This document shows, one piece after another, positions 4,189 through 37,658 of a stretch of DNA of 37,658 nt. Below the pieces are notes generated by a model that saw only the letters and a program-made list of their open reading frames with translations, was not told where the DNA came from and did not search any database. Numbering within the stretch: position 1 is the stretch's first letter; every line of letters begins with the position of its first letter. A program made the translations under genes and the position numbers. This DNA is from Paracoccaceae bacterium (GTDB lineage Bacteria > Pseudomonadota > Alphaproteobacteria > Rhodobacterales > Rhodobacteraceae). Location: the NCBI GenBank assembly GCA_011389955.1, contig JAABTI010000002.1:1-37658 (forward strand), given 5' to 3'.

Positions 4189-4408
4189 GGCAAATTCCCG
4201 GCATGGATTGAGTTTCCCGGCACTTTAGCCGTGCTGTTACCGCGACTCAAGCGCGACACTTCAGCACCTTCGGTGTTTCGTGACCGCCTGCGCGGCATTG
4301 TCCGCTGGACCTGAGGGGAATCCCCCGCTAAATACCCGTCTGATAGGTCGTGTACGCACGGACGTCATACGCAAGGGCCCTCATCGGCCGAAGAATGGAG
4401 AAACCCTC

Positions 4409-4969: not shown

Positions 4970-4980
4970 GGAGACGTATC

Positions 4981-6306
4981 ATGTCTGGAATTCCACACGA
5001 TCACTATGAACCGAAGTCCGGCGGCGCCAAGTGGCTGCACCGCCGTCTGCCCATTGCGAGCCTTTTGTATGACACGGTCACGATTCCCACGCCCAAGAAC
5101 CTGAACTGGATGTGGATCTGGGGTATCGTCCTGACGTTCTGTCTGGCGCTTCAGATCGTGACCGGCATCGTTCTGGCGATGCATTATACGCCGCATGTGG
5201 ACATGGCCTTCGCCAGTATCGAGCACATCATGCGCAACGTGAATGGCGGGCACATGCTGCGCTATCTGCACATGAACGGTGCGTCGCTGTTCTTCTTTGC
5301 GGTGTATCTGCACATTTTCCGCGGCCTTTATTACGGCTCGTACAAGGCGCCGCGCGAAGTGACCTGGATCATCGGGATGCTGATCTACCTGCTGATGATG
5401 GGCACGGCGTTCATGGGGTACGTGCTGCCCTGGGGGCAGATGTCGTTCTGGGGCGCCACGGTAATCACCGGGCTGTTCGGCGCGATCCCGTTCATCGGCG
5501 AACCGATCCAGACGTGGCTTCTGGGTGGTCCGGCGGTGGGCAACGCCACGCTGAACCGCTTCTTCTCGCTGCACTATCTGCTGCCCTTCGTGATTGCCGC
5601 GCTGGTGGCCATTCACATCTGGGCGTTCCATACCACCGGCAATAACAACCCCACCGGTGTCGAGGTGCGGCGCGACTCCAAGGCGGTGGCGGAGAAGGAC
5701 ACGGTTCCGTTCTGGCCCTACTTCGTCATCAAGGACCTGTTCGCTCTCGGCTTAATCCTGGCGGTGTTCTTCGCGATTGTCGGGTTCATGCCCAACTATC
5801 TTGGACACCCCGACAACTACATCGAGGCGGACCCGCTGGTCACGCCGGCGCATATCGTGCCCGAATGGTACTTCCTGCCGTTCTACGCGATCCTGCGGGC
5901 CTTTACCTCGGACGTATGGGTGGTGATGTTCACAAGCTGGATCACCGGCGGCATCATCGACGCCAAGTTCTTCGGCGTTCTGGCCATGTTCGGCGCGATC
6001 GCCGTGATGTTCGTGGCGCCGTGGCTGGACACGTCGGGCGTGCGCTCGGGCCGGTACCGGCCGATGTTCAAGTGGTGGTTCGCCTTGCTTGTGATCGATT
6101 TCATCGTGCTGATGTGGGCCGGGGCCATGCCGGCCGAGCCGCCCTATTCCACGATATCGTTGATCGGATCGGCGTATTGGTTCGCGTACTTCCTCGTCAT
6201 CTTGCCGCTTCTGGGCGTCATAGAGAAGCCGAACTCGGCACCGGCGACGATCGAGGACGACTTCGAATCCCATTACGGCAAAGCCTCCGGCACGCCTGCC
6301 GAATAA
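4981..6306 (+). CDS. petB: cytochrome b
   Basis: Multi-TM protein with [44 protein letters not shown] and [13 protein letters not shown]. Confidence 0.97.
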
Positions 6307-19928: not shown

Positions 19929-19929
19929 C

Positions 19930-21117
19930 ATGGACCTGAGCTATTCACCCGAAGACCGCGCCTTCCAGGAGGAGGTGCGCGGATGGCTGGCCGACAACCT
20001 GCCCGCCCATATTTCCGATGCCGTGCGTTCCGGCGGCGAGCTGACCAAACCGATGATGGAGGAGTGGCACGTGCTGCTCAATTCCCGGGGGTGGCTGGCC
20101 ACGACATGGCCGGAGGAATTCGGCGGCCCGGGCTGGACCCCGGTGCAGAAGCACATCTTCGAAGAGGAGTGCTGCCGCGCCTATGCGCCGCGCATCGTGC
20201 CTTTCGGCGTCAACATGCTGGGGCCGGTCCTGATAAAGTTCGGGACCACCCAACAGCAGGAGCACTACCTGCCGCGCATCCTTGATGGCACCGACTGGTG
20301 GTGCCAGGGCTATTCCGAGCCGGGCGCCGGTAGCGATCTGGCCAGCCTGAAAACCCGCGCTGTGCGCGATGGCGACGAGTATGTCATCAACGGGCAAAAG
20401 ACCTGGACGACGCTGGGCCAGCACGCGAACAAGATCTTCTGCCTGGTGCGCACCGACCCGGATGTCAAACAGCAGGAAGGCATTTCCTTTGTCCTGGTAG
20501 ACCTGGACACACCGGGGATCGAGATGCGCCCGATCCGCCTGATCGAGGGCGGACACGAGGTCAACGAGGTGTTTTTCACCGATGTGCGCGTGCCTGTCGC
20601 CAACCTGGTGGGCGAGGAAAACAAGGGCTGGACCATCGCCAAGTTCCTGCTCAGCCATGAACGCACGGGCATCGCCGGCGTGGGCTTTTCCATGCAGGCG
20701 CTGGAAGAGGTCAAGGCGCTGGCGCGCAAGGTGCGGCGCGGGTCGGGGCGGTTGATCGACGATCCGCTGTTCGCCGCGCGCATCGCGCAGGCCGAGATCG
20801 ACCTGGAGGCGATGAAGATCACCAACCTGCGGATGCTGTTCAAGGCGCAGGAACAGGGTGCGCCCGGCCCCGAAACCTCGATCCTCAAGATCAAGGGCAC
20901 CGTGATCCACCAGGAAATGAAGGATCTGGCGCGCCGGGCGCTGGGGCCTATGGCGGCACCGTTTCCCGGCCATGTCAGCGATGGCAACATCCTGTTCGGG
21001 CCCGAGGACACGGCGAACAACGCGGCGCGCTATTTCAACAACCGCAAGACCTCGATCTTCGGTGGATCGAACGAGATCCAGCGCAATATCCTGACCAAGA
21101 CCATGCTGGAGCTGTAA
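19930..21117 (+). CDS. acyl-CoA dehydrogenase, large-type subunit of an adjacent ACAD pair
   Basis: WCQGYSEPGAGSDLASL, LLSHERTGIAG, C-terminal SIFGGSNEIQRNILTK. Confidence 0.93.
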   Translation: MDLSYSPEDRAFQEEVRGWLADNLPAHISDAVRSGGELTKPMMEEWHVLLNSRGWLATTWPEEFGGPGWTPVQKHIFEEECCRAYAPRIVPFGVNMLGPVLIKFGTTQQQEHYLPRILDGTDWWCQGYSEPGAGSDLASLKTRAVRDGDEYVINGQKTWTTLGQHANKIFCLVRTDPDVKQQEGISFVLVDLDTPGIEMRPIRLIEGGHEVNEVFFTDVRVPVANLVGEENKGWTIAKFLLSHERTGIAGVGFSMQALEEVKALARKVRRGSGRLIDDPLFAARIAQAEIDLEAMKITNLRMLFKAQEQGAPGPETSILKIKGTVIHQEMKDLARRALGPMAAPFPGHVSDGNILFGPEDTANNAARYFNNRKTSIFGGSNEIQRNILTKTMLEL

Positions 21118-21120
21118 GCG

Positions 21121-22194
21121 ATGGATTTCAATCTGACCGATGATCGCCGGATGCTGGCCGACACGCTGGCGCGCTACCTGGCTGACAAGTACACCATCGA
21201 GCACCGCAACGCGGTGGCCTATGACCTGCCATGCCATGACCCGGCGAAGTGGGACGAACTGGCCGAACTGGGCGCGCTTTATGCGCTGGCCCCGGAGCAG
21301 GCTGGCGGTTTTGGCGGGACCGGCTTCGATATCTCGGTGGTATTCGAAGCTCTGGGGCGCGCGCTGTGCCCCGAGCCGGTATTGGCGGCATTGCTGTCCT
21401 CGCGCCTGCTGGGCGCGGCGGGGGCAGATCAGGAACCGCTGCTGACCGGCGCGACGAAATACGCCGCCGCCCTGTCCGAGCCGGACGCGCCCTACGAGAT
21501 TGCCGATATCGCCTGCACGGCCGAGCCCCGCGGCGAAGGGCACGTCCTGTCGGGGCGCAAGACGGCCGTCTATGGCGGACAGGTGGCCGATAAGTTTCTG
21601 GTCGCGGCGCGGCTGGACGGCAAGATCGCGTTGTTCGAGGTGCAGGCCCGCGATGCGCAGGTGGTCGGCTATGCCATGATCGACGGCGGCGGCGCGGCGG
21701 AACTTTTGCTGGATGACACGTCCGCCCGGCTTCTGATCGCGGATGCCGCGGCACCCATCGAGGCGGCGCAGAATGCCGCGATCGTGGCGCTTTGCGCCGA
21801 GGCCGTGGGCGCCATGGAGGTGACCCACGACACGACGGTCGATTACATGCGCCAGCGTAAGCAGTTCGGCGTGCCGATCGGCAAGTTCCAGGTGCTGCAA
21901 CATCGCGCGGTCGACATGTTGACCGAGATCGAGCAAGCCCGCTCCATCACCATCAAGGCGGCGGCGGAACTGGACGGCCCGCAGGCTTCGCGCTTTGCCG
22001 CTATGGCCAAGAACATGATCGGTCGTGCCGCGCGGCTGGTGTCCGAGGAATCGATCCAGATGCATGGCGGCATCGCGATGACGTGGGAATACCCCGTGTC
22101 GCACTACGCCAAGCGTCTGGTGATGCTGGATCATCAGCTTGGCGATACGGATCATCACCTGTCTAGGGTGATGGCGGAAAACGCGGCCGCCTGA
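21121..22194 (+). CDS. acyl-CoA dehydrogenase family protein, small-type partner
   Basis: Weak ACAD core with RQRKQFGVPIGKFQVLQHRAVDM and QMHGGIAMTWEYPVSHYAKRLVMLD; lacks the GGSNEIQ-like C-terminal motif. Starts 4 nt after its neighbour ends. Confidence 0.88.
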   Translation: MDFNLTDDRRMLADTLARYLADKYTIEHRNAVAYDLPCHDPAKWDELAELGALYALAPEQAGGFGGTGFDISVVFEALGRALCPEPVLAALLSSRLLGAAGADQEPLLTGATKYAAALSEPDAPYEIADIACTAEPRGEGHVLSGRKTAVYGGQVADKFLVAARLDGKIALFEVQARDAQVVGYAMIDGGGAAELLLDDTSARLLIADAAAPIEAAQNAAIVALCAEAVGAMEVTHDTTVDYMRQRKQFGVPIGKFQVLQHRAVDMLTEIEQARSITIKAAAELDGPQASRFAAMAKNMIGRAARLVSEESIQMHGGIAMTWEYPVSHYAKRLVMLDHQLGDTDHHLSRVMAENAAA

Positions 22195-22272: not shown

Positions 22273-22770
22273 CTAGGCGATATCGCCGGCATCGGCGCTA
22301 CTGGCATTAAGCAACCCGTAGCGTTCCGCGCCGAGGTTCTCGTAGAGTTCAAGCTGCGTTTCGAGGTAGTCAATATGGCCTTCCTCGTCGGCGATCAGTT
22401 CCTCGAACAGGTTCTTGGAGACGTAATCGCCCACCGAATCGCAGTGGTCGCGCGCCGTGATGTAAAGGTTGCGCGCGTCGTGTTCGGCGGCGAGATCCGC
22501 CTCGAGCGTTTCCTTCAGCGTTTCGCCGATCCTGAGGCTGTCCAGCTTTTGCAGGTTCGGATGACCCTCCAGGAAAATGATGCGTTCGATCAGCTTGTCG
22601 GCATGATGCATCTCTTCGATGCTTTCCTCGCGCGACTTCGCAGCGGTCTTGCCGTATCCCCAGTCCTCTTGCAGGCGGTAGTGCAGCCAATACTGGCTGA
22701 CGGCTGTCAGTTCACTGCGCAGCGCCTGATTCAGATAATCGATGACTGTCTTGTCGCCTTTCATTTGCAT
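22273..22770 (-). CDS. bfr: bacterioferritin
   Basis: [43 protein letters not shown]...[21 protein letters not shown]...[14 protein letters not shown]: four-helix ferroxidase motifs. Confidence 0.95.
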
Positions 22771-23011
22771 CTCCTGCGTTTGAGGCGCGGCGCGCCCTGA
22801 CGCCGCGCGAAAGGATGGGCACCTCAAGACTATCGCATGAGCGCATCGTGTCTAGGAAAAGAGGCAGACACCCGCCGCAATCCGCCTTCTTGCCGAGCGC
22901 GTGGTAGATCTTGCCGGGCGTGATCAGGGCATGGGAATCGGACCTGCGCATCCAGTCGACGGCGGCGCGGATGTCGTGATCGGTGATCGACATGCAATGA
23001 CAGACAATCAT
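22712..23011 (-). CDS. bfd: bacterioferritin-associated ferredoxin-like [2Fe-2S] protein
   Basis: [18 protein letters not shown]...[22 protein letters not shown] gives CxC...CxxC typical of Bfd; directly upstream of bfr, with a 59-nt overlap. Confidence 0.85.
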
Positions 23012-23181: not shown

Positions 23182-24222
23182 TCAGACCAGCTTGACGATC
23201 TGCTTGCCGAAGTTGCGGCCCTTCAGCATCCCGATGAAGGCGTCGGGCGCGTTTTCCAGGCCCTCGGCGATATCTTCCTGGATGCCGATCTCGCCCGCCG
23301 CGACCTTGGGGCCGATTTCCGACAGGAACTTCGGGTAGTGGTGGAACTGGTCCGAGATGATGAAGCCGTGCACATGCAACCGGTTCACCAGGATCGTGCG
23401 CCACAACTTGGGCAGGTTGTCCTTGTCCCCGCCGGCATTGGCGCCAAGGCCGCCAGCGTTGTACCAGCTTATCATGCCGCAAACCGGGATGCGCCCGCCC
23501 ACGTTCATCAGCGGCAGCACGCCCTCCAGAACCTTGCCACCGACGTTTTCGAAATAGATGTCGATGCCGTCGGGGCAGGCTTCGGCCAGCGCCGCGCGCA
23601 TTTCCTTGCCGTCCGCGTATGCGCGGTGATCCAGGCAGGCGTCAAATCCGAACTTGTCGGTGGCCAATGCGCATTTTTCCGGGCCGCCCGCGATGCCGAC
23701 CACGCGACAGCCCTGCGCCTTGGCGACTTGCCCGACCATCGAGCCCACAGGGCCGGTGGCGGCGGCAACGACAACGGTTTCGCCCTTTTGCGGCTTGCCG
23801 TATTCGGTCAGGCCGAACCACCCGGTGAAACCGGGCATGCCCAGCACGCCCAACGCGGCGGTCAGGGGGCCGTGCGCGGGGTCGAGCTTGCGCAACTCGC
23901 GCGCGGGAAGGCATCCGTGGCTGGCCCAGCCGAACATGCCGAAGGCGTAGTCGCCCGGTGCGAAGGCATCCGATTTCGACGCGATCACCTCGCCCACGGC
24001 GCCGCCTTCCATGGTGCCGCCGACGGGCACCGGCGTGGCATAGGACTTTGCGTCATCCATACGCCCCCGCATGTAGGGATCAAGCGACATGAAATGCACC
24101 TTGACCAGAACCTCGCCCTCGGCGGGTTCGGGCATGGCGATCTCTTCGAGGCGGAAATCATCGGGCACTGGCGCGCCATCGGGACGGCGGGCCAGGGCGA
24201 TCCGTTGCATCGTGTCGGTCAT
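23182..24222 (-). CDS. NADP-dependent MDR-family oxidoreductase (CurA / prostaglandin-reductase-like)
   Basis: RRPDGAPVPDDFRLEE, MSLDPYMRGRM, GVLGMPGFTGWFGL, VAAATGPVGSMVGQVAKAQGCRVVGIAGGPEKC, YFENVGGKVLEGVL. Confidence 0.9.
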   Translation of the reverse strand: MTDTMQRIALARRPDGAPVPDDFRLEEIAMPEPAEGEVLVKVHFMSLDPYMRGRMDDAKSYATPVPVGGTMEGGAVGEVIASKSDAFAPGDYAFGMFGWASHGCLPARELRKLDPAHGPLTAALGVLGMPGFTGWFGLTEYGKPQKGETVVVAAATGPVGSMVGQVAKAQGCRVVGIAGGPEKCALATDKFGFDACLDHRAYADGKEMRAALAEACPDGIDIYFENVGGKVLEGVLPLMNVGGRIPVCGMISWYNAGGLGANAGGDKDNLPKLWRTILVNRLHVHGFIISDQFHHYPKFLSEIGPKVAAGEIGIQEDIAEGLENAPDAFIGMLKGRNFGKQIVKLV

Positions 24223-24252: not shown

Positions 24253-24663
24253 TCAACTCCGGTACCGGAACACGCCCGTGCCGGTCGCGACGACGGTTCC
24301 GTCCTCGTCGGTAATCTTGCCTTCGGCGAAGAATGTCTTGCGCCCCCCGCCGGTGCGGTGCCCCGCGGCAAGCAACAGACCGCCACGCGCCTGCCCCAGG
24401 TAGTTGACGTTGAGCGACAGCGTCATCGCCAGCCGCGGGGCTTTCTTGTCGCCGGTGTAGCAGCCGGCAAAGCCCATGGCCGAGTCCAGCATCGCGGCGT
24501 GGACCCCGCCGTGAGGAATGCCGTAGCGGTTCATCAGCTCGGGCGAGAGGGGCAATTCCAGGCGGCAGTAATCCGGGCTCCATGCCGCGAAGGAAAACCC
24601 CAGGTGACTCTGGAACGGGTAGGGGGCCTCGACGATGTCGGGGTCAAGCTCGGACGTGGTCAT
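24253..24663 (-). CDS. PaaI-family hotdog thioesterase
   Basis: 136 aa; NRYGIPHGGVHAAMLDSAMGFAG...SLNVNYLGQARGGLLLAAGHRTGGGRKTFFAEGKITDEDGTVVATGTGVF. Confidence 0.87.
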   Translation of the reverse strand: MTTSELDPDIVEAPYPFQSHLGFSFAAWSPDYCRLELPLSPELMNRYGIPHGGVHAAMLDSAMGFAGCYTGDKKAPRLAMTLSLNVNYLGQARGGLLLAAGHRTGGGRKTFFAEGKITDEDGTVVATGTGVFRYRS

Positions 24664-24673
24664 TGATGCCTCT

Positions 24674-25708
24674 TCATACGGTCTTGGCGGCCTTCAGGCC
24701 GGCCTCGGCAAACTGGGGAACGAAACTGCCCAGCTTGCGGGCGCGTTCGGGATTCGAGGCATTACCGTCAAGCGCGCGTTTCAGCACGCCCTGCAAAATG
24801 CCGCCCATGCGGAAGAACGCAAAGGCAAGGTAGAATCCGAAACCGTCGATTCCGGGAATGCCGCGCCGGGCGCAATAGGCCTCGATGAATTCCTCGTCGG
24901 TCATCAGCCCCTCGGCCTTGCGGTCCACACCGGCCAGTCCGCGCCCCTCGGCGCCCGGCGGCATCGCCCATTGCATGATGACGGCGGCCAGGTCGGCATA
25001 GGGATGGCCGGTGGTGGACAGTTCCCAATCCAGCACCGCGGCACAGCGGGGGGCATCGGTGGCAAACAGCATGTTGTCGATGCGGTAGTCGCCATGCACC
25101 AGGGTGCGCTGCCCGTCATCGGCGGGCACGTTGGCGTCAAGCCACGCGATCAACTCTTCCATCGCCTCGATATGCTGGGTTGCGCTGGCGCGGTATTGCT
25201 TGGTCCAGCGGTCGATCTGGCGGCGGTAATAGTTCCCGCCCGGCCCGTAGTCATCAAGCCCGGTTTCGACCAGATCGACATCGTGAATCGCACACAGGAC
25301 GCGGTTCATCTCGTCCATGATCGGGCGACGGTCGGGCAGCGGCAGATCGGGCAGGCGGGGGTCGTCGAAATGCCGCCCCGGCACCTCGTCCATCACGTAG
25401 AAGGGCGAGCCGATCACGCTGTCGTCTTCGCAAAGAACGTGCATCTTCGGCACCGGGACGTCGGTTTCAAACAGGGCCTTCTGCACGCGAAATTCCCGTT
25501 CCACCGCATGTGCGGATTTCAGAAGCACGCCCGGCGGCTTGCGCCGCAGCACGTAACGCCCCGAGGGCGTTACCATCCGGTAGGTGGGGTTGGATTGCCC
25601 GACTTCGAATTTCTCCGCTTCTATGGGGCCGGAGAATCCGGGCATGTGCTGTTCGAGCCACGTGGCAACCGCGTCGGTATCGAGCCGGGAAGAAGGGGTA
25701 TCGGTCAT
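24674..25708 (-). CDS. phosphotransferase-family protein, standalone ACAD10/ACAD11 N-domain-like kinase
   Basis: GQSNPTYRMV, VLRRKPPGVLLKSAHAVEREFRVQKALF, VPVPKMHVLCEDDSVIGSPFYVMDEVPGR, LVHGDYRIDNMLF, AVLDWELSTTGHPYADLA: APH-fold catalytic HGDxxxxN and D(W)E motifs. Confidence 0.92.
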   Translation of the reverse strand: MTDTPSSRLDTDAVATWLEQHMPGFSGPIEAEKFEVGQSNPTYRMVTPSGRYVLRRKPPGVLLKSAHAVEREFRVQKALFETDVPVPKMHVLCEDDSVIGSPFYVMDEVPGRHFDDPRLPDLPLPDRRPIMDEMNRVLCAIHDVDLVETGLDDYGPGGNYYRRQIDRWTKQYRASATQHIEAMEELIAWLDANVPADDGQRTLVHGDYRIDNMLFATDAPRCAAVLDWELSTTGHPYADLAAVIMQWAMPPGAEGRGLAGVDRKAEGLMTDEEFIEAYCARRGIPGIDGFGFYLAFAFFRMGGILQGVLKRALDGNASNPERARKLGSFVPQFAEAGLKAAKTV

Positions 25709-25718
25709 GTCGGGCCTT

Positions 25719-26384
25719 TCAACTGTATGTCAGCAGGATATCGGCATTGGAGGCGTCGATATGCGGGGTTTCGTTGAAACCGTTCAGATAGAAATTGCGC
25801 GGGGAATGAACAAAGCGGTTCACCGCGCAGTTCTTCATTTGCAGTTGCAGCCGGATCTGCTGTTCCGGCGGGGCATTCAGCGATGCCGCCAGCATCTGGC
25901 CGATGGCGCCACCGGAACTGACCGCGAGGACGTGATCGCCACCCGCGGCCATGGCGCGGCGGGCATCCTCGACACGGGCGATGAACTCGGCCCATGTCTC
26001 GGGCGGGTCGGGCACCTCGTCGCGTTGCCATGCCAGAACCGTGTCGCGCAGGGTGCGGAAATGCGTCTTGCGGTCCCCGTGCAGGTTGTCGGGCGGCGTG
26101 CCATCGCGAAAGCGCGCGTCCAGCAACGCCTTGAAATCAAATTCGTTCAGGCCGGGATGGACCTGCGCCGCGCGCGCCGGCACGCCCATGCCATCGAGAA
26201 TACCCTCAAGGGTTTCGCGGTGCCGCCGCTGCGCGCCGGTAAACAGCGCTTCGGGCTGCACCCCCTGCCGCGCCAGTGCCTGACCGAGCGCGCGCGACTG
26301 GGCATGGCCGGTGTCCGACAACACGTCGTAATCCGCCGCCCCGAAAGAGGCCTGCGCATGACGGATGAGAAACAGCACGGCCAT
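25719..26384 (-). CDS. histidine phosphatase family protein
   Basis: MAVLFLIRHAQASFGAADYDVLSDTGHAQSRALG: RHxQ/RHG-type phosphatase motif; VSSGGAIGQML. Confidence 0.9.
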   Translation of the reverse strand: MAVLFLIRHAQASFGAADYDVLSDTGHAQSRALGQALARQGVQPEALFTGAQRRHRETLEGILDGMGVPARAAQVHPGLNEFDFKALLDARFRDGTPPDNLHGDRKTHFRTLRDTVLAWQRDEVPDPPETWAEFIARVEDARRAMAAGGDHVLAVSSGGAIGQMLAASLNAPPEQQIRLQLQMKNCAVNRFVHSPRNFYLNGFNETPHIDASNADILLTYS

Positions 26385-26386
26385 GC

Positions 26387-27370
26387 TCAACCCCGCCCGA
26401 TCAGCGCTGCGGTTGCGTCCTTGGCAGCCTCGTATTCCCGTGCCAGGCGTTCCACGAGATCGGCGGCGGGCGCGACCTCGTGAACCGCGCCGACGCCCTG
26501 GCCGGCACCCCATATTTCCTTCCACGATTTGGGTTTCTCGCGGTTGTCGCCGAAATTCATCGCCGACGGGTCGGACTCGGGCAGGTTGTCGGGGTCAAGT
26601 CCCGCGCGGCTTATCGAAGGCTTGAGGTAATTGCCGTGCACCCCGGTAAACAGCGAGGAATAGACGATATCCTCGGCCCCTGAGTCGACAATCATCTGCT
26701 TGTAGTCATCGGCGGCGTTCGCCTCGTTGGTGGCGATGAAGGGCGACCCGACATAGCCCAGGTCGGCGCCCATGACCTGCGCCGCCAGCAACGCGCGCCC
26801 GGTCGCGATCGACCCCGACAGAAGCAACGGACCATCGAACCACTCGCGGATTTCCTGCACCAGGGCAAAGGGCGATTGCGACCCGGCATGCCCCCCCGCC
26901 CCGGCGGCCACCGCGATAAGGCCATCGGCGCCCTTTTCGATCGCCTTTCTGGCGAAGCGGTTGTTGATGATGTCGTGAAGGGCGATACCGCCGCAGTCAT
27001 GGGCGGCGGCATTGACCTCGGCACGGGCACCCAGCGAAGTGATCCAGATCGGTACGCGCCACTTGTGGCAGATCTCCAGGTCGCGCTCCAGCCGCCCGTT
27101 CGAGCGGTGCACGATCTGGTTGACCGCGAAGGGCGCGGCGGGTGTGTCCGGGTTGGCCTGGTTGTGACGGTCGAGTTCCTCGGTAATGCGCTTGAGCCAT
27201 GCCTCCAGCATGATCGGCTCGCCCTCGGCCTCGCGGGCGTTCAGCGCGGGAAATGATCCCACGATTCCCGCCTTGCACTGCGCGATCACCAGATCTGGGT
27301 TCGAGATGATGAACAGGGGCGATCCCACGGCGGGAATGCGCAGGTTCTGCAATTGCTTGGGTAGGGTCAT
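26387..27370 (-). CDS. nitronate monooxygenase-family flavoprotein
   Basis: TIM-barrel NMO/NPD features: IAVAAGAGGHAGSQSPFALVQEIREWFDGPLLLSGSIATGRALLAAQVMGADLGYVGSPFIATNEA. Confidence 0.9.
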   Translation of the reverse strand: MTLPKQLQNLRIPAVGSPLFIISNPDLVIAQCKAGIVGSFPALNAREAEGEPIMLEAWLKRITEELDRHNQANPDTPAAPFAVNQIVHRSNGRLERDLEICHKWRVPIWITSLGARAEVNAAAHDCGGIALHDIINNRFARKAIEKGADGLIAVAAGAGGHAGSQSPFALVQEIREWFDGPLLLSGSIATGRALLAAQVMGADLGYVGSPFIATNEANAADDYKQMIVDSGAEDIVYSSLFTGVHGNYLKPSISRAGLDPDNLPESDPSAMNFGDNREKPKSWKEIWGAGQGVGAVHEVAPAADLVERLAREYEAAKDATAALIGRG

Positions 27371-27457: not shown

Positions 27458-28660
27458 TCAGAGCACTTCGAACAGGCCCGCCGCACCCATGCCGCCGCCA
27501 ACACACATGGTGCAGACCACGTAGCGAGCACCGCGGCGTTTGCCCTCGATCAGGGCATGACCGACCATGCGTGCACCCGACATGCCATAGGGGTGGCCGA
27601 TCGAGATGGCGCCGCCATCGACGTTGAGCAGGTCGTTCGGGATACCGAGCTTGTCGCGGCAGTAGAGAACCTGGACCGCGAACGCCTCGTTGAGTTCCCA
27701 AAGGCCGATATCGTCCATGCCCAGCCCGTGCTTTTCCAGCAGCTTGGGCACCGCGAAAACCGGCCCGATGCCCATTTCGTCGGGTTCGCACCCGGCCGCC
27801 ATCATGCCCATGTAGCGGCCCAGCGGTTGCAGCCCGCGGCGCTCGGCCTCTTGCGCCTCCATCACCACCGAGGCCGATGCGCCGTCGGACAGTTGCGAGG
27901 CATTGCCGGCGGTGATGAACCCGCCCTCGGCGATTTCCAACCCGCCCTTGTGCACCGGTTGCAGCGATTGCAGCCCGTCCAGCGTGGTCGAGGGGCGGTT
28001 GCCCTCATCCTTTTCCAGCGTCACTTCGCGGCGGCTGATTTCCTTGGTTTCGCGGTCCTGCACCAGCATCGTGGTGGGCAGCGGCACGATCTCGTCGTCG
28101 AACCGGCCTGCCTCCTGTCCGGCGGCGGTGCGCTGCTGCGATTGCAGGGCGTATTCGTCCTGGGCGTCGCGGCTGATGCCATAACGTTGCGCCACCATCT
28201 CGGCGGTTTCCAGCATCGACATGTAAAGCGCGGGCTTGTGTTCCTTGATCCAGGGATCGGCAAGGCGGTCGGTGCGCATCTTGTCATTCTGGACAAGGCT
28301 GATGGATTCCACGCCGCCGCCAATGGCGACATCCATGCCATCATGGATCACCTGCTTGGCCGCGGTGGCGATGGCCATCATGCCCGACGCGCACTGCCGG
28401 TCCAGCGACATGCCGGCGACAGATACCGGCAGGCCGGCGCGGATGACGCCCTGCCGGGCGATGTTGCTGCCGGTCGAGCCCTGCTGCAAAGCCGCGCCGA
28501 CGATGCAATCCTCCACGTCGTGGCCTTCCAGCCCGGCGCGCGCCACGGCATGGCGGATGGCATGCCCGATCAATTCCTGTGCCTGGGTGTCGTTGAACGC
28601 CCCGCGATAGGCCTTGCCGATCGGGGTGCGGGCGGTTGATACGATGACGGCGTCACGCAT
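27458..28660 (-). CDS. acetyl-CoA C-acyltransferase (thiolase)
   Basis: [77 protein letters not shown]. Confidence 0.95.
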
Positions 28661-28680
28661 TGGTCTGATCCTTCCTGAGT

Positions 28681-29610
28681 TCAATCTTGCCACGGCAGCG
28701 GCAGGCCACGGGCCTCGGCCGCCATTCGGGCATATTTTCGGGTCTGCGCAAAGGCGTTTTCCACCTGCGCCTGGCCGGAGGGGTCGCGGATGCGATCCAT
28801 GGCCGCCAGCACCCCTTCGGGACTGAGTTCGTCACCCTGCAAGGCGACGCCTTCGGTTTCGTATATCCTCGTTTCGGCAAAGCACCCCGCCCCGGCGCCA
28901 AGGATCATCCCGGTCGGGGCCTCGTCGCTGACCAGCGCCAGCAGGCCGGGCGTGATCGTCTCGGGCGCGAGCAGGTCCAGTGCCTCTGGCGGCAGCAGGT
29001 TCTCGGTCATGCGTGTGGCGGCCGTAGGGGCCAGCGTGTTGACGCGGATGTCGTATCTTGCGCCCTCCTGCGCAAGCACGTTCATCAGGCCCAGCATCGC
29101 CGCCTTGGCCGCTCCGTAGTTGGATTGCCCGAAATTGCCGTAAAGACCGCTGGCGGAAGTGGTGAACGCGATGCGGCCATAACCGCGCCCGGCCATGTAA
29201 GGCCAGATCGCATGGGTGCAGTTGACCGTGCCCATCAGGTGCACGTCAAGCACCCCCCGAAAATCCGCCAGCGACATCTTCGAAAAGGTCTTGTCGCGCA
29301 GGATACCGGCGTTGTTTACCACGATGTCCACTTGGCCGAATTCGGCGATGGCCTCATCCACCATCTGCTGCACCTGGCCTGAGTCGGTGACGTTGGCGCC
29401 GTTCGCGATGGCCCGGCCGCCACGTGCGCGGATCTCCTCGACCACCGTGCGCGCGGCGTCCGAACTCCCCCCGGTGCCATCGGTATTGGCCCCCAGGTCA
29501 TTGACGACCACATGCGCGCCGCGCGCCGCCAGCCCCAATGCATGACTGCGGCCCAGCCCCACGCCTGCCCCGGTCACGACGGCGACGCGTCCCTTGAAAT
29601 CGACGGTCAT
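28681..29610 (-). CDS. short-chain dehydrogenase resembling the MFE-2/HSD17B4 (3R)-hydroxyacyl-CoA dehydrogenase domain
   Basis: [36 protein letters not shown]...[14 protein letters not shown]...[29 protein letters not shown]. Confidence 0.9.
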
Positions 29611-30080: not shown

Positions 30081-30905
30081 TCACAGGTCCTCGTTGAAAA
30101 GGTTGCCCGGCGCGTTGGATTGCATCCCCCCCGACAGCGGCAAGATCGCCCCCGAGACATAGGCGCCGCCGCGCCCGCACAGGTAAAGCAGAGCACCGGC
30201 AATGTCCTCGGCCTGGCCGACACGGCCCAGGGGCACACCCTGCGCGGCCTTTTCCTGGCCCTCCTCGGTGCCGATCGCAAAGGCCGTCATGTTCGACACG
30301 AAAGGCCCCGGCGCGATGGCGTTCACGGTGATGCCCTCGGGCGCAAGGTCGTTCGACAGGACGCGCGTCATGTGATGCACCGCGCCCTTGGAGGTGGCAT
30401 AGGAATAGGTCAAGGTGCCCTTCGGGATGTCACCCATGACGCTGCCGACATTGACGATGCGCGCCGGATCACCGGGCGCGCTGGCCGCGCGCAGCAGCGG
30501 CAGCAGCGCCTGGGTGAGGTGGAACATGCCGGTGACGTTTACCGACAACAGCTTTTCCCACGCCTTGTAGGGGTGCTGGCCCAGCGGATCGCCCCAGGTT
30601 CGGCCGGCGTTGTTCATCAGGATATGCAGCTTGTCGGTGCGCGCCGCGACCTCGGTTGCGAGCGCCTCGACGCCGGCCTCGCTGCCGACATCGCCGCCGA
30701 ATCCCTCTGCTTTCCCCTTCAGGCCCATGGCGTTCAGCTCTTGCGCCACGGCCTCGCAGGCGTCGGCCTTGCGACTGGCGATCAGAACGTGCGCACCGGC
30801 GGCCATCAGCCCCTCGGCGGCCATGCGGCCGATACCCGTGGCCCCGCCAGTGACCAGCGCAACCTTGCCGGTCAGGTCGAACAACTCGTTCGGTGTCATG
30901 GTCAT
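30081..30905 (-). CDS. SDR family oxidoreductase
   Basis: LTGKVALVTGGATGIGRMAAEGLMAAGAHVLIASRK, NNAGRTWG, YATSKGAVHHMTRVLSNDLAPEGITVNAIAPGPF. Confidence 0.92.
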   Translation of the reverse strand: MTMTPNELFDLTGKVALVTGGATGIGRMAAEGLMAAGAHVLIASRKADACEAVAQELNAMGLKGKAEGFGGDVGSEAGVEALATEVAARTDKLHILMNNAGRTWGDPLGQHPYKAWEKLLSVNVTGMFHLTQALLPLLRAASAPGDPARIVNVGSVMGDIPKGTLTYSYATSKGAVHHMTRVLSNDLAPEGITVNAIAPGPFVSNMTAFAIGTEEGQEKAAQGVPLGRVGQAEDIAGALLYLCGRGGAYVSGAILPLSGGMQSNAPGNLFNEDL

Positions 30906-30920: not shown

Positions 30921-32054
30921 TCAGAACCCGCGCGCAGATGCGACTCGCGCGGCATGGTACCCGTAATCGCCCAGCCATTCCGCCCCGACGCGGGCGCGTT
31001 TCATGAAAAATCCGGCGTCGTGGTCATCGGTCATGCCGATGCCACCGTGCATCTGGATGCCTTCGCGCACGGCCAGGTCGGCGGTTTTCGCGGCGCGCGC
31101 CTTGGCCAGCGACACCGCCAGCGTGGCGTCGTCCGGCGTTTCGTCCAGAACCCGACCCGCATTGGCAATGGCCGAGGTGGTAACCTCGATCTCGGCCCAC
31201 AGATGCGCGGCGCGGTGCTGTAGCGCCTGGAAGCTGCCGATCGCGCGATCGAACTGGCGCCGTTCCTTGAGATAGCCCAGCGTCATGGCGCTGACGCCGT
31301 TGGCAAGCCCGGCCAGTTCCGCCGCCAATGCGGCCTGACCGGCATCAAGCGCGGGGCGCAACAGGCGCATGGCGTCGTCCACCTCGCCCAGCAGGTCATC
31401 GCCGATCGCCTCGACCCCGTCGAAGTCCAGGCGCGCGTGATCGCGCGCATCCACCGTATCAAGGCGCGCGCGGCTCAGCCCGGCACGCTCGGCATCGATG
31501 TCGAACAGGCTCAGCCCCTCCGCCTCGCCCGGCACACCGCCGGTGCGTGCCAGCACCAGTACGCGCGTTGCCGTGGTGCCATCGGCGACAAAGGTCTTGC
31601 TGCCCGACAGGCGGTAGCCATTGCCGGCGCGCTCGGCCCTCAGCGCGGTGTGCTCGGGCAAGTGCCTGGCGCCTTCATCCAGCGCCAGCGCGTAGGTCGT
31701 CTCGCCCGCTGCGATGCCCGCCAGCGCATCGCGCGCCCGTGCTCCGGCGGCGTGGCGCAGGGCCGTGGCGGCGATCACCGCGGTGGACAGAAACGGCGAC
31801 GCGGCCAGCGTGACGCCCATTTCGTGCGACAGGATGCCGGCCGCACGGTGACCCATCTCCGCGCCGCCGGCGTCTTCGGGAACCAGCACGCCCGCCCATC
31901 CCATTTGCGCCATTTCCCGCCACAGGCCGGGATCGCAGGGGCGGCCCGCGTCACGATTGGCGCGCAGGGCCGATACCGGCGCGGCCCCGTCCAGAAAGCC
32001 GCGCGCCGCGTCGCGCAGCATGATTTCCTCTTCGGTGTCCAGCAGGCTCGTCAT
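30921..32054 (-). CDS. acyl-CoA dehydrogenase family protein, small-type partner (start 32054 or 32066)
   Basis: MTSLLDTEEEIMLRDAARGFLDG...LKERRQFDRAIGSFQALQHRAAHLWAEIE...IQMHGGIGMTDDHDAGFFMKRARV; no C-terminal GGT/GGS motif. Confidence 0.88.
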   Translation of the reverse strand: MTSLLDTEEEIMLRDAARGFLDGAAPVSALRANRDAGRPCDPGLWREMAQMGWAGVLVPEDAGGAEMGHRAAGILSHEMGVTLAASPFLSTAVIAATALRHAAGARARDALAGIAAGETTYALALDEGARHLPEHTALRAERAGNGYRLSGSKTFVADGTTATRVLVLARTGGVPGEAEGLSLFDIDAERAGLSRARLDTVDARDHARLDFDGVEAIGDDLLGEVDDAMRLLRPALDAGQAALAAELAGLANGVSAMTLGYLKERRQFDRAIGSFQALQHRAAHLWAEIEVTTSAIANAGRVLDETPDDATLAVSLAKARAAKTADLAVREGIQMHGGIGMTDDHDAGFFMKRARVGAEWLGDYGYHAARVASARGF

Positions 32055-32062
32055 CGTGGTCC

Positions 32063-33241
32063 TCATGCGCTTGGCAGTTCAAGCACCCGCTTGGCGATGA
32101 TGTCGAGCATCACCTCGGATGTGCCGCCTTCGATCGAGTTGGCCTTGGTGCGCAGCCATTCCGCCGCCAGCGTCCCGTGCGGCCCGTCCCATTCCAGCGC
32201 GTCGCTGCCCGCCGCGGACATGAGCAGCTCGTAACGGCGCTTGTTCAGTTCGGTGCCGTAGTATTTCAGCATCGCGCTGGCATTGCCGACGCCGCCGCCT
32301 GCCTCGGCATGATCCTTGTAGCGTTCCATCGTCATGGCAAAGGCGAGCGTGTCCACCTCGGCCGCCATGGCCTCGGTGCGAATCACCGGGTCATTCAGGG
32401 CGCCATCGTCCAGATCGTCGATGAACGCCCCCAGGGATCGTCCGCCCAGCAGCCCGCGCGCGCCGCCACCGATCATTTCACGCTCATGCGTGAGCAGGTA
32501 TTTCGCGATGTCCCACCCGCGGTTCACCTCGCCCACCAGGTTTTCCTTGGGCACCTTGACGTTGTCGAAGAACGTCTCGCAAAACGGCGACTTGCCCGAG
32601 ATCAGGCGAATTGGCCGCGTGGTGATGCCCGGCGTTTCCATGTCCATCAGCAGAAAGGAAATGCCCTTGTGCTTGGGCGCGTCCCGATCCGTGCGCACCA
32701 GTGCGAAGATCCAGTCGGCCTTGTCCGCGTAAGAGGTCCAGACCTTCTGCCCGTTGACCAGGTAATGGTCGCCCATGTCTTCGGCCCGGGTCTGCACATT
32801 GGCAAGGTCGCTGCCGGCGCCGGGTTCCGAGTAACCCTGGCACCAGCGGATTTCGCCTTGCGTGATCGGGGGCAGGTGACGCGCCTTTTGCGCCTCGTTG
32901 CCAAAGGCCAGAAGCGCCGGTCCCAGCATCCACAAGCCGAAGCTTTCCAGGGGTGGCGGCGCGCCGAGGCGGGCCATTTCCTCGCGCAGGATCTTTTCCT
33001 GGTCGCGCGTCATGCCGCCGCCGCCATACTCGGTCGGCCAGCGCGGCGCCGTCAGCCCCTCTTGGCGGGCGCGCTCCAGCCAGAGGCGTTGATCGTCATC
33101 GCGGAACGTCCAGCGGCGCCCGCCCCAGACGATGCTGTCCTCGCTCATGGGCCGGTTGCGCAGGCTTGCCGGGCAATTGTCCATGATCCAGTCGGATATC
33201 TGCGTTCTGAACTGCTCGGGTTCGATGGCGGGTGCAGGCAT
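32063..33241 (-). CDS. acyl-CoA dehydrogenase, large-type subunit of an adjacent ACAD pair
   Basis: RWCQGYSEPGAGSDLANVQTRAED, YLLTHEREMIGG, C-terminal NSIEGGTSEVMLDIIAKRVLELP. Start placed at MPAPAIEPEQF. Confidence 0.92.
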   Translation of the reverse strand: MPAPAIEPEQFRTQISDWIMDNCPASLRNRPMSEDSIVWGGRRWTFRDDDQRLWLERARQEGLTAPRWPTEYGGGGMTRDQEKILREEMARLGAPPPLESFGLWMLGPALLAFGNEAQKARHLPPITQGEIRWCQGYSEPGAGSDLANVQTRAEDMGDHYLVNGQKVWTSYADKADWIFALVRTDRDAPKHKGISFLLMDMETPGITTRPIRLISGKSPFCETFFDNVKVPKENLVGEVNRGWDIAKYLLTHEREMIGGGARGLLGGRSLGAFIDDLDDGALNDPVIRTEAMAAEVDTLAFAMTMERYKDHAEAGGGVGNASAMLKYYGTELNKRRYELLMSAAGSDALEWDGPHGTLAAEWLRTKANSIEGGTSEVMLDIIAKRVLELPSA

Positions 33242-33285: not shown

Positions 33286-33314
33286 TTGACATGCAAGCAA
33301 TATCATCTTTTGAT
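33286..33314 (+). promoter_or_regulatory. candidate sigma70-type promoter for the ABC importer genes
   Basis: TTGACA, 17-nt spacer, TTTGAT; downstream start codon at 33369. Confidence 0.45.
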
Positions 33315-33368
33315 CCGGGTCAAGGAGGGCGTGCCCGCTTGGCCGCTTTTCGACATGGGAGGAAAAAC

Positions 33369-34604
33369 ATGAAACTAGTGAAATCCGCTGCACTCGCGGC
33401 AGCAATGGGGTTCGCCGCGATGGGCGCATCCGCAGAAACCGTCAAGATCGCCTTCATCGATCCGTTGTCAGGTCCGTTCGGGCCGACCGGTGATGCGGGC
33501 TTCAAGCAGTTCAAGCACGCCGCCGCCGAGGTCAACGCCGCCGGCGGCATGAACGGCATGGAATTGGAGATCGTGCCGTTCGACAACAAGGTCAGCCCCA
33601 AGGAATCGCTGGTGCAGCTGCAAAAGGCGATCGACCGCGGCATCCGGTTCATCGCGCAGGGCAACGGCTCGTCCGTGGCTTCGGCGATCATCGACGCGGT
33701 CAACAAGCACAACAAGCGCAACCCCGGCGACGAGATCCTGTTCCTGAACTACGCCGCGGTCGATCCGGCCTTCACCAACGACAAGTGCTCGTTCTGGCAT
33801 TTCCGGTTCGATAGCCATGTCGACATGAAGATGTCCGCCGCAACCGACTGGATCGCCGATCGTGATGAGATCGAGAAGGTTTATGTCATCGGGCAGGACT
33901 ATTCCTTCGGCAAGGCCGTGGCGGATGCCGCCGTCGGCCAGCTCGCGGAAAAGCGCCCCGATATCGACATCGTCGGCAACGAACTGCATCCGCTGGGCCG
34001 GGTAAAGGATTTCACCCCCTACATCCAGAAGATCATCAGCTCCGATGCCGATGCGGTCATCACCGGGAACTGGGGCGCCGACATGGTGCTTCTGGTCAAG
34101 GCGGCGATCGATTCGGGCCTCGAAGCGCCGATCCTGACCTACTATGGCGGCTCGCTGGGTGCGGCGACGGCCATGGGCGAGGCGGCCGTCGGCCAGGTGC
34201 GACAGATTTCCGAATTCGTGGAAAACTATCCCACCACCGACGCGCAGATCGCCCGCATCGAGGATTTCGAGGAAACCTATCCCGAAAACGATTACTACTT
34301 CCACCGGGTCTACAACGCGGTGCATTTCCTGGACCGGGCAGCCGAAAAGGCGGGGAGCAACGATCCCGTCGGGATCGCCTTCGCGCTGGAGGGGATGACC
34401 CATGACGGCCCTTACGGCAAGGTGACGATGCGGGCCGAGGACCACCAGGTTCTCCAGGATCTGTTCGTCTCGACCTTCTCCGCGGATGTGGAGCGTGACG
34501 TCGAGGATACCGGCCTTGGCTGGACCGCAAGCGACGCGGACCGCATCGAGGCCAGCGCGACCGCGCCGCCGACCACCTGCGAAATGGATCGTCCCTCGCG
34601 CTGA
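33369..34604 (+). CDS. branched-chain-amino-acid-type ABC transporter substrate-binding protein
   Basis: Signal peptide MKLVKSAALAAAMGFAAMGASAETVKIAFIDPLSGPFGPTGDAGFKQFKHAAAEVNAAGGMNGM, type-I periplasmic binding fold. Confidence 0.93.
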   Translation: MKLVKSAALAAAMGFAAMGASAETVKIAFIDPLSGPFGPTGDAGFKQFKHAAAEVNAAGGMNGMELEIVPFDNKVSPKESLVQLQKAIDRGIRFIAQGNGSSVASAIIDAVNKHNKRNPGDEILFLNYAAVDPAFTNDKCSFWHFRFDSHVDMKMSAATDWIADRDEIEKVYVIGQDYSFGKAVADAAVGQLAEKRPDIDIVGNELHPLGRVKDFTPYIQKIISSDADAVITGNWGADMVLLVKAAIDSGLEAPILTYYGGSLGAATAMGEAAVGQVRQISEFVENYPTTDAQIARIEDFEETYPENDYYFHRVYNAVHFLDRAAEKAGSNDPVGIAFALEGMTHDGPYGKVTMRAEDHQVLQDLFVSTFSADVERDVEDTGLGWTASDADRIEASATAPPTTCEMDRPSR

Positions 34605-34622
34605 TCCGGCAAGATGTCTAGG

Positions 34623-34645
34623 CGGGCGGCTTCGGCCGCCCGTTT
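34623..34645 (+). terminator. hairpin between the substrate-binding protein and permease genes (attenuator)
   Basis: 8-bp stem CGGGCGGC / GCCGCCCG with TTCG tetraloop, followed by TTT. Confidence 0.75.
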
Positions 34646-34700
34646 CCTCCCGTGCAGCTTGGATGCAGCGGTGCGGAATCCCTTCTGACAAGAGGTCCTT

Positions 34701-35633
34701 ATGGAAACGATCGTATTCTCACTCCTCAACGGGGTGATTTACGGGCTGCTGCTGTTCATGTTGTCCAGTGGCCTGACGCTGATCTTCAGCATGATGGGCG
34801 TGCTGAACTTCGCCCATGCCAGTTTCTACATGCTCGGGGCGTATTTCGCCTACTCTATCATGGGGGTCACGAATTTCTGGATCGCGCTGATCTTTGCGCC
34901 CGTCCTGGTCGGGCTGGTTGGTGCGGCGGTCGAGAAATGGGGCCTGCGCAAGGTGCACGCCAACGGGCATGTGGCCGAGCTGCTGTTTACCTTCGGATTG
35001 GCATACCTGATCGACGAGGTGGTCAAGATCCTCTGGGGGCGCAACGCGGTGGATTACCGCGTTCCCGAAGTGCTGGATTTCCCGCTGTTCGAACTGTTCG
35101 GCGCGCAATACCCGGCCTACCGGGTTTTCATTCTTCTGGTGTCGGTGGCGATGCTGGCGGCGTTGTGGTTCATCCTGAACCGCACGCGCGCCGGTCTGAT
35201 CATCCAGGCCGCGCTGACCCATCCGCATATGGTCGGACACCTCGGGCATAACGTGCCGCGGATCTTCATGACGGTTTTCGGTGTGGGTTGTGCGCTGGCC
35301 GGTCTGGCCGGTGTCATCGGCGGCAACTACCTCGTGACCGATCCGGCGATGGCCGTTCAGATGGGGCCGATCGTTTTCGTCGTGGTCGTGGTCGGCGGCC
35401 TCGGTAGCCTGACCGGCGCCTTCCTTGCCGCGATGCTGCTGGGTCTGATGCAGACATTCGCCGTGGGTATCGACGCCTCTTTCGCCGACATGTTCGGTTG
35501 GCTGGGCCTGAGCGCAACCTCCGAAGTGGGAAGCATAACGATCGCGTCGCTGGCGCCGATGATCCCGTTCCTGATGCTGGTGCTGATCCTGATGATACGC
35601 CCGCGTGGCCTGATGGGGGACCGTGAGCTGTGA
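34701..35633 (+). CDS. branched-chain-amino-acid-type ABC transporter permease (LivH-like)
   Basis: SLLNGVIYGLLLFMLSSGLTLIFSMMGVLNFAHASFYMLGAYFAY; MIRPRGLMGDREL C-terminus. Confidence 0.93.
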   Translation: METIVFSLLNGVIYGLLLFMLSSGLTLIFSMMGVLNFAHASFYMLGAYFAYSIMGVTNFWIALIFAPVLVGLVGAAVEKWGLRKVHANGHVAELLFTFGLAYLIDEVVKILWGRNAVDYRVPEVLDFPLFELFGAQYPAYRVFILLVSVAMLAALWFILNRTRAGLIIQAALTHPHMVGHLGHNVPRIFMTVFGVGCALAGLAGVIGGNYLVTDPAMAVQMGPIVFVVVVVGGLGSLTGAFLAAMLLGLMQTFAVGIDASFADMFGWLGLSATSEVGSITIASLAPMIPFLMLVLILMIRPRGLMGDREL

Positions 35634-36901
35634 GTGAGAATTCCATGCAAAGCTATGAACACCTGGCCCCGTCGCGGGCGGTGAAGATCCGTCAGCGGTT
35701 CGTGCCATTCGTCGTCATGGCGCTGGTGCTGGCGATGATCCCTGTCTTCGATCCGTCGCGCACGATGTATTCGCTGATGGCGGCGATGGGGATAAACATC
35801 GTCTTCGCGCTTTCTTACAACATGCTGCTGGGGCGCGGTGGGCTGCTGTCGTTCGGACATGCGGTGTATTTCGGCCTGGGGGGCTACGCGGCCCTGCACG
35901 CCATGAATGCCATCGATGCAGGCGAGTCCGCGTTCTGGAGCAACTATCCCGTTTTCATGCTGCCGGTCGTGGGCTTTGCCATGGGCGCGCTGGCTGGGGC
36001 CGTCATCGGTTGGCCCTCGTGCAAGCGGTCCGGCGTGCCGTTCGCCATGATCTCGCTCGGGGTGGCCGAACTGGTCGCCGCGGCGGGGTACATGTTCGGG
36101 TCGTTCTTCGGGGGCGAAATGGGGGTCACCGGCGACCGCATGGTCGGACCGCAGCTTTTCGGTCTGTCGATGGGGCCGGTCGAGGATGTCTACTGGTTCA
36201 TCGCGTTCTGGACCTTCGTCGGCACGCTGGGCATCTACGCCTTCACCCGCACGCCTCTGGGCAAGATGTCCGAGGCCACGCGCGACAACCCCGAGAGGGT
36301 TCAGTTCGTCGGCTACGATCCAAACCGCGTGCGCTATCTGGTGTTCATCTTCGCCGGTGCCTTTGCGGGGCTGGCCGGTGGCATGGCGGCGGTCAATTAC
36401 GAGATATTCACCCCCGAATCCGTTTCGCTGATCCCGTCGGGGCTGGTGTTGCTGATGGCATATATCGGCGGCATCCGCTACTTCACCGGGCCCATCATGG
36501 GGGCGATCCTGCTGACCTACATGCAATCGATGCTGTCGGACTATTCCGAGGCGTGGCTGCTGTATCTGGGCCTGCTGTTCATCGCCATAGTGATGTACGC
36601 CCCCGGCGGTGTGGCCGGGATCGTCTTCGGCCTTCTGGACATCTTCCGCCATGACGGCGCCCGCGAGGTGCTGACCCGGCGTGTCAAACAGGCGGTCGGC
36701 GTGGCGCTTGCCTTTACCGGGCTCGTCATCCTGACCGAGGTCGCCGTGCGCTGGTCGAACGGGTATGGCGAGGTATTCGAGCCATTCGGCCTCCACCTGG
36801 GAATTGATACGCCGCTCAGTTGGGTTCTGATCGTCGGGTTCTTCGCGGCCGGGTACGTCACGTTGCGCCTGGCGCGCAACAAAGAGGAGGAAACCGCATG
36901 A
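35630..36901 (+). CDS. branched-chain-amino-acid-type ABC transporter permease (LivM-like)
   Basis: YNMLLGRGGLLSFGHAVYFGLGGYAALHAMN; 4-nt overlap with the upstream permease. Confidence 0.92.
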   Translation: MSENSMQSYEHLAPSRAVKIRQRFVPFVVMALVLAMIPVFDPSRTMYSLMAAMGINIVFALSYNMLLGRGGLLSFGHAVYFGLGGYAALHAMNAIDAGESAFWSNYPVFMLPVVGFAMGALAGAVIGWPSCKRSGVPFAMISLGVAELVAAAGYMFGSFFGGEMGVTGDRMVGPQLFGLSMGPVEDVYWFIAFWTFVGTLGIYAFTRTPLGKMSEATRDNPERVQFVGYDPNRVRYLVFIFAGAFAGLAGGMAAVNYEIFTPESVSLIPSGLVLLMAYIGGIRYFTGPIMGAILLTYMQSMLSDYSEAWLLYLGLLFIAIVMYAPGGVAGIVFGLLDIFRHDGAREVLTRRVKQAVGVALAFTGLVILTEVAVRWSNGYGEVFEPFGLHLGIDTPLSWVLIVGFFAAGYVTLRLARNKEEETA

Positions 36902-37658
36902 GCACGCCCGCGCTTTCAATCAATGGCCTCAAGAAGAACTTCGGCCCGGCCGAGATCATCTGCGGCGTGGATCTGGACCTGACGGCGGGTGAACGTCACG
37001 CCATCATCGGGCCGAACGGGGCAGGGAAGTCCACGCTGTTCAACCTGATATCGGGCCTCTACACCCCCACGGCCGGCAGCGTGAAGCTCAAGGGCGAAGA
37101 GATCTCGGGCCGGTCGCCCCACGCGATCAACCGCATGGGGCTGTCGCGCAGTTTCCAGGTCTCCAACATCTTCGCCAACATGACGGTCCGGGAAAACGTG
37201 CGTTGCGGCGTGCTCTATTCGCTCGGATACGGCTACAGCTTCTGGCGCAACGTCGGCAACCTGCGCGAGGTGCAGCAAATGACCGGCGAGGTGCTCGAGC
37301 GTGTGGGCCTTCTGGACAAGGCCCACCTGCCCGCCGCCCTTCTTCCCTATGCCGATCAGCGCACGCTGGAGATCGCCATCACCATCGCCGGCGGTGCCGA
37401 TGTCATCCTGCTGGACGAGCCGACAGCGGGGATGAGCCATTCCGAAACCGACAGGGCCGTGGCCCTGATCGAGCAGGCAACCGCGGGCAAGACCCTGATC
37501 GTGGTCGAGCATGACATGGGCGTGGTTTTCAACCTGGCCGATCGCATCTCGGTTCTGGTCTACGGCCAGATCATCGCCACCGGAACGCCCGAGGAAATCC
37601 GCGGCGATTCCCGCGTGCGCGAGGCGTATCTGGGCGACGAGGACGAGCAACTGGCGCT
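36898..37658 (+). CDS. branched-chain-amino-acid-type ABC transporter ATP-binding protein (LivG-like), truncated by window end
   Basis: Manual translation from ATG at 36898 (ATGA overlap with the permease stop): MSTPALSINGLKKNFGPAEIICGVDLDLTAGERHAIIGPNGAGKSTLFNLISGLYTPTAG...; open to the end, hence absent from the ORF track. Confidence 0.93.
   Translation, partial: MSTPALSINGLKKNFGPAEIICGVDLDLTAGERHAIIGPNGAGKSTLFNLISGLYTPTAGSVKLKGEEISGRSPHAINRMGLSRSFQVSNIFANMTVRENVRCGVLYSLGYGYSFWRNVGNLREVQQMTGEVLERVGLLDKAHLPAALLPYADQRTLEIAITIAGGADVILLDEPTAGMSHSETDRAVALIEQATAGKTLIVVEHDMGVVFNLADRISVLVYGQIIATGTPEEIRGDSRVREAYLGDEDEQLA

Follow-up and report, generated by a model that had tools for sequence, protein, structure and literature searches.

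The window, that is, the whole stretch of 37,658 nucleotides that was analysed, is contig C114 (JAABTI010000002.1) of a Paracoccaceae MAG, from a marine bacterium, that is 58.6% complete. It carries a compact minus-strand operon of eleven beta-oxidation-type genes, which runs from a large-type ACAD subunit to a CurA-type reductase and includes the sole copy of the kinase found in this MAG. Translation of the open reading frames places the kinase (24674-25708) on the minus strand, with an ATG start and 344 amino acids; a plus-strand reading of the same interval was rejected, and codon-position GC backs the kinase and its neighbours as real genes. The genes of the operon and the divergent genes beside it are given below, the residue numbers of the phosphatase following alignment A1.

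23182..24222, minus strand: CurA-type NADPH-dependent MDR (alkenal/one or curcumin reductase family); NF058644 above cut-off
24253..24663, minus strand: hotdog (4HBT/PaaI-like) acyl-CoA thioesterase, 10 nt downstream of the kinase
24674..25708, minus strand: predicted standalone ACAD11/LvaA-type hydroxyacyl-CoA kinase (APH fold), 344 aa, with D207 (HGDYRIDN) and N212; Pfam, PDB matches, tree, AlphaFold2
25719..26384, minus strand: atypical histidine phosphatase, 221 aa, with R9, H10, R55 and E82 kept and S158 (SSGG) in place of the second catalytic His; Pfam, alignment, fold
26387..27370, minus strand: nitronate-monooxygenase-like flavoprotein (NMO); profile match
27458..28693, minus strand: thiolase, acetyl-CoA acyltransferase type, its true start maybe downstream of 28693; profile match
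28681..29610, minus strand: SDR 2, multifunctional-enzyme/17beta-HSD4-like; best NCBIfam model PRK07791
29607..30077, minus strand: MaoC-type enoyl-CoA hydratase; profile match
30081..30905, minus strand: SDR 1, candidate ketone/hydroxyl dehydrogenase
30921..32066, minus strand: ACAD small-type subunit, PimD-like, without the LvaC/ACAD11 residues
32063..33292, minus strand: ACAD large-type subunit, PimC-like, without the LvaC/ACAD11 residues; start probably internal to 33292
33291..37658, plus strand: divergent branched-chain-type ABC transporter genes (binding protein, two permeases, and an ATPase reaching the window end)

The phosphatase gene extends from its ATG at 26384, the end coordinate given in a preliminary description of this DNA made from the sequence alone, to a TGA at 25719-25721. 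The gap between this stop and the kinase ATG is exactly 10 nt, the spacing also given in that description. The stop of the NMO gene lies 2 nt upstream of the phosphatase ATG. The surrounding unit with two ACADs, SDRs, MaoC and thiolase is also as described there. The called starts of the large ACAD and of the oppositely oriented transporter binding protein overlap at 33290-33293; the ACAD start probably lies further in, the Sulfitobacter homologue having 391 aa against 409 aa here. A Pim-like set (17826-22194, plus strand), comprising a PimF-like ECH/HCDH fusion with PimC-like and PimD-like ACADs, converges on the kinase operon. A set of this kind is also found beside six related loci (L079, L095, L176, L195, L196 and L214), a recurrence that hints at a pathway shared with the kinase operon. 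A ferritin-like gene of bacterioferritin/Dps type follows the operon (22273-22827, minus strand) and is probably unrelated, as it is missing from the same position in related loci.

The kinase matches the Pfam APH family (PF01636) at 1.6e-51. Its PDB matches include the standalone protein 3dxp of Cupriavidus (C. necator), at 1.8e-105, and, at 1.8e-79, the cryo-EM chain of mouse ACAD11 (8v3v). Identity reaches 41% over 348 aa with the kinase domain of mouse ACAD11 (E = 1e-95) and 50% with 3dxp. All of the kinase motifs quoted in the preliminary description are present. D207 and N212 of HGDYRIDN are the counterparts of D220 and N225, the catalytic Asp and Asn of ACAD11 (PMC12440821), and are invariant in 22 relatives. 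R163 and E72 are invariant in the kinase alignment as well: R163 aligns with R176 of ACAD11, a CoA contact (RQxxxWTKQY), and E72, the alpha-C Glu, adjoins R71, the published ACAD11 number (R86) differing from the residue count here. The AlphaFold2 model has a mean pLDDT of 92.6. In a tree of 119 kinases the window kinase groups with ACAD11, 3dxp and the Burkholderia kinases (SH-aLRT 100), while pseudomonad and related kinases form a separate clade; this was a quick tree with several long branches, that of ACAD11 among them, and fine placement is unsure. The proposed resemblance to the N-terminal phosphotransferase domain of ACAD10/11 is thus borne out by sequence, residues and tree, and by these marks the protein is classed as a standalone ACAD11/LvaA-type hydroxyacyl-CoA kinase. 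Published work shows that the domains of ACAD10 can be replaced by a kinase and an ACAD from Burkholderia (PMC11342911). In one genome a second kinase copy lies in two adjacent pieces (G009:C3:43828-44780), probably a frameshift or a decayed paralogue.

The ACAD domain of ACAD11 requires R626, H634, R637 and D753 (PMC12440821). This set is absent from each of the four ACADs in the window, and none of the four contains the DGPDxVH motif, a lack already recorded in the preliminary description; lacking these residues, they were rejected as the phosphate-eliminating partner. In many relatives, an LvaC-type ACAD with RLGPGRIHHCMR and ADGPDxVH directly adjoins a kinase 60-69% identical to that of the window. 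With the LvaC of a relative as query, contig C231 of this MAG yielded a 71% identical ACAD (4373-5599); the protein carries the equivalents of R626, R631, H634, R637 and D753 and matches ACAD11 structures at about 1e-123. This gene is solitary, with unrelated neighbours such as a MoaA-like gene. The suggestion of an eliminating partner possibly encoded elsewhere is borne out by what the MAG contains, and the C231 protein is the probable partner, acting in trans. Since the LvaC gene is unlinked and the MAG is 58.6% complete, the assembly may lack a second partner.

The two genes keep company across genomes. Within the family, LvaC is found in 58 of 61 kinase-positive genomes and in 0 of 13 kinase-less ones (Fisher 5e-12), and within the phylum in 58/58 against 1/19 (Fisher 1e-16), tests that ignore the shared ancestry of the genomes; at the level of genomes the kinase is linked to LvaC-type ACADs. 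In five relatives that are 99% complete (G041, G070, G044, G073 and G031) exactly one kinase is present, adjoining the phosphatase, and a single LvaC is encoded in trans, so that the trans arrangement looks normal and not an artefact of assembly. Gene fusions of kinase and LvaC were not found among the fetched loci. A divergent LvaC-like group (L058, L059, L052; 33-35% identity) keeps the key residues, has TQMRLGxARLTHCMRWLG and DGADEVH, and pairs with kinases of 41-47% identity, possibly for a different substrate class. Three LvaC-like copies are reported with an in-frame stop codon (G250:C7:7120-8277, G292:C3:301197-302408 and G299:C1:2852428-2853645).

Far from being a random neighbour, the phosphatase is conserved alongside the kinase over a wide range of bacteria. 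In Rhodobacteraceae, where a check of this adjacency had been proposed, phosphatase orthologues of 45-63% identity adjoin the kinase in every genome that has one above that level. By comparison of coordinates, about 20 of 76 kinase-positive genomes of Proteobacteria have the two genes within a single operon, where chance predicts about 0.07. Operon sharing spans Alpha-, Beta- and Gammaproteobacteria and plasmids of Deinococcus and Streptomyces. Of the 80 best phosphatase loci from named genomes, a kinase lies within 8 kb in 56, the linked ones belonging to Rhodobacteraceae, Burkholderia, Paraburkholderia, Caballeronia, Alteromonas, Microbulbifer and others. Gene orders vary: phosphatase-kinase, LvaC-phosphatase-kinase, phosphatase-LvaC-kinase, LvaC-kinase-phosphatase and phosphatase-SCP2-kinase. 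On plasmids the two genes adjoin in Sulfitobacter, Azoarcus, Pseudoalteromonas, Streptomyces and Deinococcus, overlapping on the D. radiodurans plasmid, and an LvaC-type ACAD with both motifs lies near the pair in the last four genera. Gene fusions of kinase and phosphatase were not found among the fetched loci. Six window-like loci (L074, L075, L079, L086, L089 and L090) are without the phosphatase, which is therefore not essential.

In the family of the window, LvaC accompanies the kinase in cis at 41 of 53 loci that lack the phosphatase and at 1 of 15 that have it (p = 9e-7; p = 5e-4 for close kinases only), whereas outside this family phosphatase and LvaC coexist in one operon. The contrast, which is a correlation only, fits a phosphatase whose role matters when kinase and eliminating enzyme are made apart.

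Two of these arrangements bring further genes into view. In four pseudomonad-type loci (L184, L186, L187 and L188) a 104-aa protein is encoded between phosphatase and kinase; its identification as LvaB was rejected for its SCP2 sterol-carrier domain, and it is possibly an acyl-CoA carrier. The Sulfitobacter plasmids, of about 176 kb, bear a window-like operon (L276, S. pontiacus NZ_CP049345.1, 47424-72434) with an IclR regulator, an ABC transporter, a ligase annotated as acetoacetate--CoA ligase, a thioesterase II and a beta-lactamase-fold hydrolase. This gene set is compatible with the use of lactones or hydroxy acids, and is no proof of it.

The phosphatase matches His_Phos_1 (PF00300) at 2.9e-21, and its AlphaFold2 model (pLDDT 92.8) finds RosC, PGAM5, 9mmh and PhoE as fold matches in the PDB. 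Like these members of branch 1 of the histidine phosphatase superfamily, it has the fold, the RHG/A nucleophile motif, a second Arg and an acid Glu. R9, H10, R55 and E82 are invariant in all of the 117 aligned relatives. The second catalytic His of branch 1 enzymes usually stands in xHGG; in contrast, the corresponding position is Ser throughout this subfamily (117/117), and S158 aligns with the second catalytic His of the solved phosphatase 9mmh. The intact nucleophile, Arg pair and acid Glu argue for catalysis, and hence for an active but altered enzyme, while the fixed Ser means that the phosphatase is possibly not a normal one and that it may have a regulatory role. Ser-type phosphatases unlinked to a kinase are also found in some genomes, and S158 was rejected as a marker of kinase-linked members alone. 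The preliminary description had called a role for this protein speculative; its companionship with the kinase is now plain, and the role put forward below is a presumed one.

The kinase type and its pathway are already known. Mammalian ACAD11 and ACAD10 (PMC12440821, PMC11342911) share with the window full-length kinase homology (41% to ACAD11) and the catalytic Asp and Asn, and the MAG encodes an ACAD domain matching that of ACAD11 at R626, H634, R637 and D753. ACAD11 is, however, a single fused protein, while here two genes lie on separate contigs; and ACAD10 has a fused degenerate HAD domain where the window has a separate histidine phosphatase. With the lva system (Rand et al. 2017, described here after PMC6692424) the window shares the logic of an LvaA-type kinase, an LvaC-type ACAD and an SDR. 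The full set of lvaA, lvaB, lvaC, lvaD and lvaE is not encountered in the window, which has no LvaC-type ACAD in cis and no recognised LvaB or LvaE, and whose SDRs may or may not correspond to LvaD; instead, its operon adds beta-oxidation genes and the histidine phosphatase, and its kinase is nearer to ACAD11 and Burkholderia kinases than to those of pseudomonads. The levulinic-acid cluster of Pseudomonas citronellolis LA18T contains a kinase, a histidine phosphatase with a suggested dephosphorylating role, LvaC and LvaD (PMC6692424). It resembles the window in having an LvaA-type kinase near a histidine phosphatase, and differs in that LvaC and LvaD belong to the cluster; here the operon is a full beta-oxidation set to which the LvaC gene is not linked. 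As this cluster is already published, what the window shows is a known pathway in a broader variant. Among the searchable open-licence literature, PMC6692424 alone mentions a histidine phosphatase beside an LvaA kinase. As far as searchable papers show, what is new is the linkage over three phyla, the fixed change of His to Ser, and the trans-encoded LvaC of the Rhodobacteraceae version.

The explanation favoured here, with a probability of about 0.6 as a whole, is a split ACAD11 system, in which the kinase would work with the C231 LvaC in trans and the phosphatase would clear stalled phospho-acyl-CoA. The activities and substrate that it assigns are predicted from the gene identities, residues, co-occurrence and linkage observed. 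The kinase would move a phosphate from ATP onto a hydroxyacyl-CoA that the operon makes or carries, at its 4-hydroxyl or at a hydroxyl close by. The C231 enzyme would eliminate phosphate from the 4-phosphoacyl-CoA to give a 2-enoyl-CoA, which could enter a round of beta-oxidation by the MaoC, SDR and thiolase of the operon. Stalled or misplaced phospho-acyl-CoA, or the freed phospho-acid, would be hydrolysed by the phosphatase to the alcohol, preventing the trapping of CoA when the kinase outpaces LvaC. The thioesterase and the CurA-type reductase may handle stalled thioesters or enones.

Two of the other explanations differ in the part given to the phosphatase. It may be a regulatory pseudo-enzyme that binds the kinase or phospho-acyl-CoA and restrains the kinase, by analogy with the HAD domain of ACAD10, which misses one catalytic Asp, has negligible phosphatase activity and, when mutated, increases kinase activity (PMC11342911). 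This precedent, the Ser found in 117/117 relatives and the close linkage to the kinase across three phyla lend the idea weight, but a pure pseudo-enzyme would not need an invariant nucleophile His, two Arg and an acid Glu, members exist without a linked kinase, and fusions are missing from the fetched loci; on balance we regard it as unlikely, though a serious contender. The phosphatase might also be a forward enzyme that dephosphorylates 4-phosphoacyl-CoA in place of LvaC or alongside it, as suggested for P. citronellolis LA18T from a matching gene set (PMC6692424). The tendency of the phosphatase to replace LvaC beside the kinase in the family of the window would agree with this, yet hydrolysis gives back the alcohol and no alkene, LvaC is still found in trans wherever checked, and the two genes are adjacent in many operons, all of which make a forward role very doubtful.

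Two further explanations concern the kinase. It could act on a different acyl-CoA of the operon, such as a cyclic or dicarboxylic one that bears a hydroxyl, with one of the PimC/PimD-like ACAD pairs of the window eliminating the phosphate, as the preliminary description had allowed for an atypical ACAD pair. The operon does hold a heteromeric-type pair, often beside a Pim-like operon; with the four ACAD11 residues missing from every window ACAD and a bona fide LvaC in the same genome, the proposal is not supported and appears improbable. That the kinase is a generic APH-family enzyme for aminoglycosides or other small molecules, its neighbours being coincidental, is suggested by the names given by Pfam and NCBIfam, which are APH names only. 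The NCBIfam aminoglycoside models score far under their cut-off (31.9 against 205 bits), the ACAD11 match is far better, and the tree and the co-occurrence with LvaC also speak against such an identity, which is hardly credible.

Returning to the split ACAD11 system, a wider reading is offered tentatively. In at least three phyla, bacteria may carry out the phosphorylation-dependent catabolism of hydroxyacyl-CoAs through a triad of kinase, LvaC and atypical histidine phosphatase. The Ser-type phosphatase would then be dedicated to control or proofreading, fixing how much phospho-acyl-CoA is present, and would be the bacterial, non-homologous counterpart of the HAD domain of ACAD10. For a widespread family that is still named aminoglycoside phosphotransferase the annotation is corrected, and a kinase operon with no visible LvaC may have its complement in a solitary LvaC gene at another place in the genome. 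That mammalian ACAD10 and ACAD11 give 4-hydroxy fatty acids a route that depends on phosphorylation is a recent finding. How cells avoid a build-up of phospho-acyl-CoA becomes a testable question through a phosphatase that spans three phyla with a fixed change in its active site, and the kinase-phosphatase pair would provide an easy bacterial system for the control of these intermediates.
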